Assembly: GCA_902598305.1 (NCBI GenBank)
Contig: CACKBL010000002.1
Location: 124,001-188,000, forward strand
DNA length: 64,000 nt
DNA from: an uncultured Bacteroidota bacterium
Lineage (GTDB): Bacteria > Bacteroidota > Bacteroidia > Flavobacteriales > Flavobacteriaceae
Reading direction: 5' to 3'
The stretch's first letter is position 1. Each line of letters starts with the position of its first letter. A model generated the notes under the pieces. That model was not told the origin of the DNA. It did no database searches and saw nothing but the letters and a program-made list of their open reading frames with translations. Shown piece after piece: positions 46,465 to 51,713 of this stretch. The translations under genes were made by a program, and so were the position numbers.

Positions 46465-47214
46465 TTAGGGTTTAAGTGTTGATGACAGGTATTCGCTATT
46501 CATTCTAGCCACATTTTTTAAAGAAATTCCCTTCGGACACTCAACTTCACATGCCCCCGTATTAGTACAATTTCCAAACCCCTCATCATCCATTTGCTTG
46601 ACCATGTTTAAAACCCTTTGTTTTGACTCGACTTTACCTTGCGGTAGAAGTGCATATTGAGAAACCTTAGCAGATACAAATAACATAGCAGAAGCATTTT
46701 TACAACTAGCGACACAAGCACCACAACCAATGCATGTAGCGGCATCAAATGATTTGTCTGCATCATCTTTTTCAATAGGAATAGAATTTGCATCTTGAGT
46801 ATTACCAGAAGTATTAATACTGATAAAACCTCCCGCTTGCTGAATTCTGTCAAATGCTGATCTGTCAACTACCAAATCTTTGATTACTGGAAAAGCATTA
46901 GCCCGGAAAGGTTCAACAACAATGGTGTCACCATCCTTGAATTTTCTCATATGCAACTGGCATGTTGTTACAAGGCGGTCCGGTCCGTGAGCCTGTCCGT
47001 TTATAAACATAGAGCACATGCCACAAATACCTTCTCTACAGTCGTGATCAAAGGCGACGGGATCTTCTTTTCCTTCGGATATAATCTTACTGTTTAGAAC
47101 GTCCATCATTTCAAGGAATGACATGTCAGGAGAAACATTTGACATCTTATATGTCTTCATTATCCCCTTAGAATTGCTGTTTCTTTGTCGCCAAATTTTT
47201 AATATTAAATTCAT
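46465..47214 (-). CDS. sdhB: Succinate dehydrogenase/fumarate reductase iron-sulfur subunit
   Basis: A 249-residue electron-transfer subunit of complex II. The [2Fe-2S] motif is [13 protein letters not shown] (about 58-70, plus a later Cys near TCQLHMRKF). The C-terminal cluster motifs are [11 protein letters not shown] (about 146-156) and [15 protein letters not shown] (about 200-214), giving [4Fe-4S] and [3Fe-4S] type ligation. The frame is open for 10 more codons, but ATG 47214 lies one base after the sdhA stop and gives normal length. Third gene of sdhCAB. Confidence 0.95.
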
Positions 47215-47215
47215 T

Positions 47216-49474
47216 TTATTTGTATGATCTTGTTTTAACCTCAATTTCTTCGTATTCTAGTTTTTCTTTGTGAAGAACAGATTTTCTTGGTTCCTTATTA
47301 AATTCCCATGCTGAAACGTATTTATAATCTTTATCATTTCGCAAAGCTTCACCTTCTTTTGTCTGGTGTTCCTCTCTAAAATGTCCTCCACACGACTCTT
47401 CTCTTTCGAGTGCATCTTTGGCAAATAATTCACCAAGTTCAAGAAAGTCTGACACTCTTGTAGCTTTCGAGAGTTCTTCATTGAATTCATCCAATTTTCC
47501 AGGTATTTTTACATTCTGATGGAAATCTTCTCTAAGATTTTTTATTTCATTTATTGATTCCTTAAGTTCATTTTTATTTCGAGACATCCCACATTTGTTC
47601 CACATAATTTTACCAAGTTTTTTGTGATAATAGTCAACTGAATTTTTGCCTTTTCTATTTATTAACTTTTCTAAAGATTCTCTAACATATTTTTCTGCCT
47701 TCTCAAATTCAGGACTATCAATGGAAATTGGACCAGTACGAATATCATCAGATAAATAATCTCCTATTGTGTAAGGTAGAACAAAATAACCGTCTGCTAG
47801 TCCCTGCATTAATGCTGACGCACCAAGTCGATTGGCCCCATGGTCAGAAAAATTAGCTTCTCCAATTGCGTAACACCCAGGGATTGTTGTCATTAGATTA
47901 TAATCAACCCATACACCTCCCATTGTGTAATGTACTGCAGGATAAATCATCATTGGAGTTTCATATGGATTTTGATCCACAATTTTTTCGTACATCTGAA
48001 ATAAATTCCCATATTTCGCTTTAACAACTTGTTTTCCTAACTTCATTACTAATGAGGCATCTTTTTCATCAAGTCCCAAAACTAAAGCTCTCTCTTTTCC
48101 ATATCTTTCAATCGAAGAACTAAAGTCTAAATAAACTGCTTCTCCTGTCTTATTTACACCATATCCAGCATCACAACGCTCTTTAGCAGCTCTTGAAGCA
48201 ACATCCCTTGGAACCAGATTCCCAAATGCTGGATACCTTCTTTCTAGATAATAATCACGATTCTCTTCTGCGATTTCAGTTGGACTTAATTTACCCTCTC
48301 TAATCATCTTAACATCTTCTAGTTTTTTGGGTACCCATATACGTCCATCGTTTCTTAGTGATTCGGACATCAGGGTTAATTTAGATTGGTGATCTCCAGA
48401 AACTGGAATACAAGTGGGATGAATTTGAGTAAAGCAAGGATTCGCAAAAAGAGCACCTCTTTTATGTATTTTCCATGATGCAGAAACATTACTACCCATC
48501 GCGTTAGTAGACAGGTAAAAAACATTCCCATAACCACCGGAGGCGATTACAACAGCATGAGAAGAATGTCTGTTAATTTCACCAGTAACCAAATTTCTGG
48601 TTATAATTCCCCTTGCTTTTCCTTCAACGATAACGATATCCATCATCTCATGTCTATTATACATTTTAATTTTTCCTCTTCCAATTTGTCTGTTCATAGC
48701 TGAATATGCACCTAACAAAAGTTGTTGACCTGTTTGACCTTTGGCGTAAAATGTCCTGGAAACAAGTACTCCTCCAAAGGATCTGTTATCTAAAAGACCT
48801 CCATAATCACGTGCAAATGGAACTCCTTGAGCAACACATTGGTCTATTATATTTCCTGAAACCTCTGCTAATCTGTAAACGTTAGCCTCCCTAGATCTAT
48901 AGTCTCCACCCTTGATAGTATCATAAAAAAGTCTATGTATTGAATCACCGTCTCCTTGATAATTTTTAGCTGCGTTTATACCTCCCTGGGCAGCTATTGA
49001 GTGAGCTCTTCTAGGGGAATCTTGAAAACAAAAAGTTTTAACATTGTACCCAAGTTCTGCTAAGGTAGCTGAAGCTGACGCGCCTGCTAAACCAGTACCA
49101 ACAACTATCACATCGATTTGACGTTTGTTTGCAGGACTTACCAGATTTATTTTACTTTTATGATTGGTCCACTTTTCAGAAAGACTTCCCTTTGGAATTT
49201 TGGGATTAAGAATTTGACCATTAGTTTTAGTGTGTTTATAAAGTGATTTTTCCCATTCTATTGCTAATAAGTTTGCTTTTTGAATATATGCCTCATTTTG
49301 ATTTTTTTCGTCTGTAGTTTTAGGGTCAGTAATTAAATGAAATGGCAGGGTTTTTATAAGTCTTTTTGCCTTACGCTTACCATTCACAATTTCATAGCCA
49401 GAAAAAAAATTTAACCTAATTGATGAGGTTCCGTTTGAATTTGGTCTATATCTTATTTTAACTGTTTTTTTCAA
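47216..49474 (-). CDS. sdhA: Succinate dehydrogenase flavoprotein subunit with an added N-terminal recombinase-like arm domain
   Basis: A 752-residue reading frame. From about residue 88 it is an ordinary Bacteroidota Sdh[16 protein letters not shown] binds FAD (about 121-135), [15 protein letters not shown] has the flavin-attaching His (about 154-168), and the Arg/His active-site regions continue to the C terminus. It oxidises succinate in complex II. Residues 1-87 are foreign to SdhA and resemble the arm-type DNA-binding domain of Bacteroidota tyrosine recombinases. The frame opens with TTG (49474-49472), with a stop three codons upstream. No ATG is present before about residue 250, and the normal SdhA start position is ATT, so the enzyme seems to need the extension or a non-standard start. 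SdhA itself is certain; the nature of the extension is probable. Confidence 0.9.
49214..49474 (-). other. Integrase arm-domain-like segment fused in frame to sdhA
   Basis: The 87 codons before SdhA encode a basic beta-strand region, [20 protein letters not shown] then [13 protein letters not shown], followed by [13 protein letters not shown] and a helix [20 protein letters not shown]. This order (NG-rich strands, G-K-R, P-K-T-x-x-E-K-x-x-N, then helix) matches the N-terminal arm-binding domain of Bacteroidota phage/transposon-type integrases. The fusion point, near 49213, falls just where that domain would end. The SAM-like and catalytic domains are missing. A remnant of an integrated element is the best explanation; a BLAST-type search is needed to confirm. 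Confidence 0.6.
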
Positions 49475-49487
49475 TTTTTTTTATTTT

Positions 49488-49530
49488 AAGGTGCACAAAT
49501 TAATCAAGGTGCACAAAAAAGGTGAACCAA
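49488..49530. repeat. Three direct repeats before the sdhA fusion
   Basis: AAGGTGCACAAA at 49488-49499 and 49506-49517 (18-bp period), and AAGGTGAACCAA at 49519-49530. They lie 13 bp upstream of the TTG start, in a 98-bp gap after sdhC. Related copies with the same 18-bp period lie upstream of sdhC. Confidence 0.7.
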
Positions 49531-49572
49531 TGAAATTTTTAATTTCTAAATAAATTGTTTGGGTTAAATCAA

Positions 49573-50235
49573 TCATATTGAATTTGTAAAATGAAATAAT
49601 GCTATAAAAACAAAACCTAATGGAACTCCAATTGCAAAAAGTTTTGTCAAACCTCTAATTGAAAGAATGTATTTATTGTTTACTCCAACAGATTGAAATG
49701 AGGAATTAAAACCATGTAAAAGGTGTAACCCAAGAAAAAGAAAAGAAAATGAATAAAGACTAACTCTTATTGGACTTTCAAATTTGTGAGTCATTTCGAA
49801 GTAATATCTATCGGGATCTAACGGGTTGACTTCAACATATTTGTAATTCATTTCTGGTATCCAAAAATCATAGAAATGTAAAAACATAAAAAGCAAAACA
49901 ACAATTCCCGACAAAATCATGTTCCTAGACATCCAAGAAGAATTTGAACTACCTTTAACGTAATAGTATTTTACGGAGCGTGATTTACGATTTTGATAAT
50001 CTAGTACCATCCCCATAACAAAGTGAAAGACTACACCAAAAATTAAGATTGGTTGTAAAATAAATTGGACTATTGGATTATTCCCCATGAAATGGGAAAT
50101 ACTATTAAAAACTTTTTCAGAAAACACAGAGGTTAGGTTAATAGTGAAATGCTGAAATAAAAATAAAATCAAAAATAGACCAGATATAGCCATCGCGTAC
50201 TTTTTAACTAAAGAGGAATTAAATAGTTTGAACAT
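49573..50235 (-). CDS. sdhC: Succinate dehydrogenase cytochrome b subunit
   Basis: A 220-residue membrane anchor with five hydrophobic helices, the single-subunit type B form found in Bacteroidota. Conserved histidines for di-heme ligation lie in LFQHFTINL (about 26-34), GVVFHFVMG (about 67-75), FMFLHFYDFW (about 115-124) and LHLLHGFNSSFQ (about 168-179). It passes electrons from SdhB to menaquinone. First gene of sdhCAB. The 98-bp gap to sdhA is longer than expected for this operon and holds the repeats. Confidence 0.94.
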   Translation of the reverse strand: MFKLFNSSLVKKYAMAISGLFLILFLFQHFTINLTSVFSEKVFNSISHFMGNNPIVQFILQPILIFGVVFHFVMGMVLDYQNRKSRSVKYYYVKGSSNSSWMSRNMILSGIVVLLFMFLHFYDFWIPEMNYKYVEVNPLDPDRYYFEMTHKFESPIRVSLYSFSFLFLGLHLLHGFNSSFQSVGVNNKYILSIRGLTKLFAIGVPLGFVFIALFHFTNSI

Positions 50236-50263
50236 AACCTAACAATATTTCTAACTTTTAGCT

Positions 50264-50293
50264 AAGGTACACAATTTTTTTAAGGTACACCAA
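50264..50293. repeat. Two direct repeats upstream of sdhC
   Basis: AAGGTACACAAT (50264-50275) and AAGGTACACCAA (50282-50293) have the same orientation and the same 18-bp period as the copies before the sdhA fusion. They lie 29 bp upstream of the sdhC ATG, in the presumed promoter region. No exact TAnnTTTG was found on the minus strand here. Confidence 0.7.
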
Positions 50294-50420: not shown

Positions 50421-51713
50421 ATGAGATATAGACCTATAAGCAGTCATGTTTACAAAAAAAACAGAGATAAGTTCATGAGTGAGATGAAAAAGGACAGTAT
50501 TGCAGTATTTAATTCTAATGATATTTATCCAATCGGAGCAGATTCAACATTTCCATTTGAACAGCACAGAGATATTTTTTATTTGACTGGAATTGATCAA
50601 GAAGAAACCATTCTATTACTTTCACCTGAAGCTAAAGAAATAAAAAATCGTGAAATCTTATTTGTTAAAAAAACAGACAAAAATATTCAAATTTGGGAAG
50701 GGCCAAAACTATCAAAAGAAGACGCAAGATTGATTAGTGGCATTGAAAAAATTCTATGGTTAAATGAATTTGAACCCACACTCAAGGAAATTACCTCTCA
50801 AAACAATGGAATCTATCTTAACAAAAATGAACATTACAGAAATAACTCCGAGACTCAGACAAGAGAAGATAGATTCATTTCAAAGTTTAAGAAAGAATAC
50901 CCAACTCATTCTGTATACAGAAGTAATCCGATATTGCAGCACCTTAGATCAATTAAAGACCCATTAGAAATAAACCAGATTAAAAAAGCTAGTGATATTA
51001 CTGAGATGGGATTTAGAAGAATCTTAAAATTTATCAAACCGGGTGTTTGGGAATATGAAATTGAAGCGGAACTACTACACGAATTTATTTCAAACCGTTC
51101 TAAAGGATTCGCTTATTCTCCTATCATAGCAAGTGGAAAAAATGCCAACATTTTGCATTACATAAAAAATAATTCACAGTGCAGGTCTGGAGAACTTATT
51201 CTAATTGATTCTGCTGCTGAGTATGGTAATTATTGTAGTGATCTCACTCGTACGATACCTGTTTCTGGAAGGTATAGTGTTCGTCAAAAGGCTATTTACA
51301 ATGCAGTCCTAAATGTAAAAAAGGAAGCTACAACTCTTTTGAAGCCAGGTAATTTATGGAAAGAATATCATGAAGAAGTTGGAAAAATTATGACTGCAGA
51401 ACTTCTAAAGTTGGGATTAATTGACAAAAATGATGTAAAAAAACAAAACCCTAAATACCCTGCATATAAAAAATATTTCATGCATGGAACATCGCATCAT
51501 CTTGGATTAGATACTCATGATTATGGACTTTTAAGTGAACCCTTTGAACCTAATATGGTTTTCACTGTTGAACCAGGAATCTACTTGCCTGATGAAGGGT
51601 TTGGAATACGTATTGAAGACGTCGTTGTAGTTCAAGAAAGTGGTGACCCTATAAACCTGATGAAAAATATACCGATTGAAATCGATGAAATTGAAAGTAT
51701 TATGAATAGTTAA
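50421..51713 (+). CDS. Xaa-Pro aminopeptidase (aminopeptidase P, M24B)
   Basis: A 430-residue metallopeptidase removing N-terminal residues before proline. The N-terminal domain covers about 1-165. The five metal ligands of the pita-bread fold are visible: Asp in LILIDSAAEYGNYCSDLTRT (two Asp, about 256-275), His in MHGTSHHLGLDTHD (about 354-367), Glu in FTVEPGIYLPDEG (about 381-393) and Glu in IRIEDVVVV (about 396-404). The enzyme therefore looks active. It is divergent from sdhC, and its stop overlaps the convergent FeoB-associated peptide by 4 bp. Confidence 0.93.
   Translation: MRYRPISSHVYKKNRDKFMSEMKKDSIAVFNSNDIYPIGADSTFPFEQHRDIFYLTGIDQEETILLLSPEAKEIKNREILFVKKTDKNIQIWEGPKLSKEDARLISGIEKILWLNEFEPTLKEITSQNNGIYLNKNEHYRNNSETQTREDRFISKFKKEYPTHSVYRSNPILQHLRSIKDPLEINQIKKASDITEMGFRRILKFIKPGVWEYEIEAELLHEFISNRSKGFAYSPIIASGKNANILHYIKNNSQCRSGELILIDSAAEYGNYCSDLTRTIPVSGRYSVRQKAIYNAVLNVKKEATTLLKPGNLWKEYHEEVGKIMTAELLKLGLIDKNDVKKQNPKYPAYKKYFMHGTSHHLGLDTHDYGLLSEPFEPNMVFTVEPGIYLPDEGFGIRIEDVVVVQESGDPINLMKNIPIEIDEIESIMNS

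Follow-up and report, generated by a model that had tools for sequence, protein, structure and literature searches.

The direct repeats on both sides of sdhC are quite probably arm-type sites bound by a captured integrase arm domain, now the N-terminus of SdhA, through which SdhA would control transcription of its own sdhCAB operon. This reading is preferred because the domain and the sites co-occur, the domain is under selection and the array resembles those ahead of integrase genes (int).

In the window, that is, the whole 64,000-nucleotide stretch analysed, the operon runs in the order sdhC, sdhA, sdhB on the minus strand (Table 1). AAGGTGCAC occurs at 49488 and 49506 and AAGGTACAC at 50264 and 50282, with a step of 18 bp inside each pair. 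A weak extra copy, AAGGTGAAC, starts at 49519, and its step from site 2 (49506) is 13 bp, not 18. All five copies lie on one strand, and the unit read along the operon strand is TTGTGTACCTT. The first-pass annotation had described same-strand direct repeats with an 18-bp period; its coordinates, strand and in-pair period were all reproduced. The sdhC-side pair is located 29–58 bp ahead of the sdhC start and the sdhA-side pair 14–43 bp ahead of the sdhA start. An overlap of the repeats with a Bacteroidetes −33/−7 promoter (TTG near TACCTTxG) is a hypothesis that some of the copies, though not all, would fit. The sdhC-side pair sits in an intergenic region shared with a divergent gene for a probable M24-type aminopeptidase (window 50421–51713), and might affect that gene as well.

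Table 1. Features of the sdh region, in window coordinates.
Feature	Position	Strand	Remarks
Candidate arm-type site 1, sdhC–sdhA gap	49488..49499	-	12-bp copy AAGGTGCACAAA; operon strand TTTGTGCACCTT; 14 bp ahead of sdhA TTG; conserved in genus
Candidate arm-type site 2, sdhC–sdhA gap	49506..49517	-	12-bp copy AAGGTGCACAAA; 18 bp from site 1; weaker in two genus members
Degenerate third copy TTGGTTCACCTT	49519..49530	-	12-bp copy AAGGTGAACCAA; 13 bp from site 2; not conserved in genus
sdhC-proximal candidate arm-type site ATTGTGTACCTT	50264..50275	-	12-bp copy AAGGTACACAAT; 29 bp ahead of sdhC ATG; core invariant in six genus members
sdhC-distal candidate arm-type site TTGGTGTACCTT	50282..50293	-	12-bp copy AAGGTACACCAA; 18 bp from proximal site
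sdhC, cytochrome b558-type subunit	49573..50235	-	TIGR02046 E=3e-44
sdhA, 752 aa: arm domain, linker and complete SdhA core	47216..49474	-	core matches NF005749 from residue 87
sdhB, iron-sulfur subunit	46465..47244	-	NF005746 E=1e-126; overlaps sdhA end
Putative integrase-type arm-binding domain, SdhA residues 1 to ~80, TTG start	49235..49474	-	hhalign E=2e-21; AF2 b-b-b-a, pLDDT 89; dN/dS 0.10

The motif AAGGTRCAC has four matches in the window, all at these repeats, against 0.32 expected, and one of 100 shuffles reached four. Over the whole 1.80-Mb assembly the single motif is at background (14 matches vs 12 when reversed as a control). In tandem form, AGGTRCACN{7,12}RGGTRCAC gave nine matches in the genus, in five of seven genomes and all at the two sdh positions, and none in the control; the tandem motif is present in close relatives and is not frequent outside sdh in the genus. 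A genome-wide regulon for the repeats was rejected on the same count. At the four main sites 31 of 48 columns are invariant among six genus members, as compared with 92 of 235 columns in the remaining non-coding DNA (P=0.001); for the extra copy at 49519 the figure is three of 12.

The catalytic core of SdhA is intact, scoring 1169.8 bits against NF005749 with a dN/dS of 0.03. The N-terminal ~80 residues are additional to this family model, which begins at residue 87. All five further genomes of the genus that have an sdhA match carry the addition (whole-protein identity 94–98%), and it is also found in other genera. Of the 12 carriers, 11 have lost the ancestral SdhA start and have no start codon shortly before the core; all SdhA in these carriers carries the arm domain, because no alternative start gives a domain-free protein. 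No int, xis or cargo genes are present between sdhC and sdhA.

An integrase-like domain beside one set of repeats had already been pointed out in the first-pass annotation; that observation was correct and is key to the finding. SdhA residues 3–79 align with residues 9–86 of Flavobacteriaceae tyrosine recombinases (hhalign against their N-termini, 40% identity), the region in which Pfam puts the arm DNA-binding domain. Among ten aligned integrases, PF17293 (Arm-DNA-bind_5) is matched in seven, and PF13102 and PF00589 in all. The AF2 model of the SdhA domain is arranged as strand-strand-strand-helix, the order of three strands and a helix given for arm-binding domains (PMC8138268). A modelled homologous integrase-like protein has the same order of secondary structure, the only feature taken from that model, on which no conclusion depends. 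Residues 4–26, covering most of strands 1 and 2, are invariant at 18 of 23 positions, and the helix (residues 53–78) at 5 of 26. The dN/dS of the domain, measured at a median dS of ~0.6, indicates that it is under purifying selection. The class A domain, as the type found in the window is called, was also compared directly with Pfam, PHROGs and PDB sequences; the PF17293 HMM gave no direct match to it, and a Foldseek search of the PDB returned no significant match, none below E=0.5. No second homologue of the domain was found in the genome. Of the domains of a recombinase only the arm domain precedes SdhA; the core-binding and catalytic ones are missing. By homology and by the model, the SdhA N-terminus is a putative DNA-binding domain in the same polypeptide as the enzyme.

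A scan of GTDB found the sites in 11 of 11 fusions and a tandem pair in none of 51 scorable non-fusions. When only non-coding sites are counted, they are present at all 12 fusion loci and at none of 80 non-fusion sdh loci (P=3e-15), the controls being mostly from the same order. The fusions form no single clade and are scattered over the SdhA-core tree, with six changes of which at least four are forced. The sites ahead of sdhA adjoin the domain on the DNA and are inherited with it, so the co-occurrence is partly linkage and by itself shows that the two are transferred and retained jointly. An example of such block import is locus L088, which matches L112 at 94–100% identity over the 3 kb upstream and is once more nearly identical to it beyond the core start; the ~0.9-kb tract between, from sdhC to the SdhA N-terminus, is replaced. 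The comparison indicates that L088 acquired sites and domain as one block by recombination. The linkage objection is answered by the pairs at the sdhC promoter and by the other fusion classes described below. The sdhC-side pair, which six members of the genus and L085 have, does not belong to the block adjoining the domain; sites ahead of sdhC are lacking in five of the 12 class A carriers. With this co-occurrence and their likeness to integrase arrays, the repeats are candidate cognate sites of SdhA in its own operon.

An order-wide scan of SdhA N-termini in Flavobacteriales, with follow-up, yielded three further classes of fusion, B, X and C. Class B (MED-G11) matches PF17293 at E=3e-10, class X (family f6) carries HTH_17 with E from 3e-11 to 7e-15, and class C (families f1, f8 and f11) is arm-like, with a PF17293 score under the cut-off. 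The motif differs from class to class, with densities in the non-coding DNA of the operon of 12.8 (A), 9.0 (B), 13.5 (C) and 5.0 (X) per kb against 0.14, 0, 0.50 and 0.43 per kb, respectively, in the 80 non-fusion loci; the classes are defined by patterns written after the domains were seen, and the X motif is loose. The class motif is present in 8/8 class C and 2/2 class B loci, and HTH_17-class arrays were detected in 7/9 loci vs 0/87 controls. An exact 7-mer repeat shuffle test, which is too strict for degenerate arrays, gave P<=0.05 in 6/11 class A, 2/7 class C and 2/9 class X loci and in 2/48 controls, and P of 0.81 for the window itself. Sites at the sdhC promoter are found in the window genus, in L085 and in the class C genome G010, which has sites ahead of both sdhC and sdhA as in the window. 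In L188 and L189, where sdhC and sdhA overlap, the class C sites are ahead of sdhC instead of in the gap.

Several details of individual loci were recorded. In f6 (L180–L183, L185, L192–L195) the N-terminal HTH_17 of SdhA is excisionase-like, and GGACA/AGACA/TGTACA arrays with steps of ~11 bp precede sdhA. The class C arm-like fusions of L187–L190, L036/L200 and L201–L203 have TGTGTTA/TAACACA sites before sdhC and/or sdhA. In MED-G11 (L127, L128), two GGGG[CT]ACAA repeats, 14 bp apart, lie ahead of the start of the PF17293 arm SdhA. At L204 (G164) the class C domain occupies a 131-aa ORF ending where the SdhA core would follow, which would be either a frame break or an assembly error.

In the proposed mechanism, SdhA would bind both site pairs inside the cell, and the bound protein would block the promoter or start of sdhC and sdhA, resulting in repression. 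SdhA would leave the DNA once it is assembled with SdhB and SdhC at the membrane, or once it carries flavin or substrate, and the operon would thereby sense unassembled SdhA. By analogy with PutA, SdhA would be a trigger enzyme and probably a repressor, responding to a putative signal at predicted promoter positions. It is unlikely that the fusion binds the sites and instead activates the operon, or holds sdh DNA close to the membrane complex in a transertion-like manner. The sign of regulation is not readable from sequence, SdhA does belong to a membrane-associated complex, and sites 14–58 bp ahead of the start codons leave the mechanism unfixed; however, such closeness to the start codons suits blocking more than activation, and the PutA precedent is one of autogenous repression (PMC5293562).

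A separate transcription factor that uses the repeats as its operators to act on sdhC and sdhA, with the fused domain incidental, is very unlikely. Both pairs do lie directly ahead of genes of one operon, and many bacteria have unrelated sdh regulators. Against such a factor, the sites are confined to sdh loci with a fusion, the motif differs by fusion class, and no regulon beyond sdh was found in the genus. Control by SdhA itself is the preferred reading, and the earlier proposal that the repeats are operators best describes their present use, with SdhA, through its arm domain, as the most likely regulator and with promoter positions that are predicted.

The origin of the sites is suggested by genuine integrases of the same family, which carry arrays of their own site variant directly ahead of int. 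The consensus of 46 sites from the 12 fusion loci is TT[GA]TG[TC]ACC[TC][TC][AG]A. Before int, L052 has four copies of TATGCCCAT and L055 four copies of GTGTCATTT, both with steps of 11/22/18, and in neither case were any of 100 shuffles as good; examples of steps in fusion arrays are 11/31/18, 12/30/17 and 13/18. Arrays before int are also present in L057, L058, L060, L062, L067, L071 and L073. Because genuine integrases carry similar arrays in this position, the simplest reading is that sdhA took the 5′ end of an integrase gene, with arm sites and arm domain together. The first-pass annotation had put forward arm-type recombinase sites and operators as alternatives; the best explanation appears to merge the two, the repeats being arm-type sites by origin, for which the integrase arrays argue, and operators by use. 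Its further suggestion of attachment-site remnants is improbable, with sites and domain kept in all 12 carriers, purifying selection on the domain and a second pair at the sdhC promoter. Nor is a deletion of sdhC by recombination between the sets to be expected: no recombinase catalytic domain is left, and sdhC is kept in all genus members with the locus. A passive remnant, in which an element inserted between sdhC and sdhA and its int decayed to leave functionless arm sites and a piece of the integrase frame, would account for the likeness of sites and domain to an int 5′ end and for the block inheritance, but is highly improbable given the low dN/dS of the domain over a median dS of ~0.6, the retention of sites in 12/12 carriers, the sdhC-promoter pairs ~750 bp off and the rise of unrelated DNA-binding domains at the same place, each with its own motif.

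Other observations concern the integrases and a possible viral origin. L053, L054 and L056 encode integrase-like proteins with F or L in place of the catalytic tyrosine, adjoining a beta-N-acetylhexosaminidase-like gene in several genomes; they are perhaps domesticated DNA-binding proteins. In L058–L062 and similar loci, integrase genes lie directly 3′ of, or near, the mnmE 3′ end, and several of these loci have arm-like arrays ahead of int. A phage or provirus origin, sought through viral contigs, was rejected, with no relative in IMG/VR.

Beyond the window, it is somewhat more likely than not that SdhA became an autogenous transcription regulator at least three to four times in streamlined Flavobacteriales, each time via a DNA-binding domain of mobile-element type and its matching array (the excisionase-like HTH_17 or one of three kinds of integrase arm domain), and that the class A block passes from lineage to lineage by recombination; complex II would then report its assembly or redox state to its promoter. 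The named carriers are mostly genomes of ~0.8–2.1 Mb, in keeping with a demand for compact regulation, as judged from the carriers by themselves. No report of an SdhA–integrase arm fusion or of SdhA autoregulation was found in the open-licence literature, where absence is weak evidence. If the proposal is true, an enzyme at the heart of respiration and the TCA cycle monitors its abundance or state of assembly and adjusts the transcription of its own genes, as PutA does for proline, which would give small marine genomes poor in regulators a means of sdh control. It would also illustrate how integrase parts turn into host regulators, and the classes would provide a natural series of matched arm-domain/site pairs from which the code by which integrase arm domains recognise DNA can be read.

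Enzymes that regulate the genes of their own pathway from a single polypeptide include BirA and NadR. The joining of enzyme and regulator proposed for SdhA is of this type, whereas BirA and NadR are soluble biosynthetic enzymes that use HTH domains and have no mobile-element array. Closer is trifunctional PutA, a membrane-associated flavoenzyme with an N-terminal RHH domain that is the autogenous repressor of put (PMC5293562). SdhA is likewise a membrane-associated flavoenzyme of central catabolism with an N-terminal, here putative, DNA-binding domain and probable sites in its own operon; it differs in being a subunit of complex II and in having a domain of the integrase-arm kind, and both its DNA binding and its switching are predictions. 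With tyrosine recombinases of the IntCTnDOT subgroup (PMC8138268), the fusion shares a homologous domain of three strands and a helix and a direct-repeat array before the gene. Unlike these recombinases, it has no core-binding and catalytic domains, and its array lies ahead of sdhA and also, within the genus of the window, ahead of sdhC.
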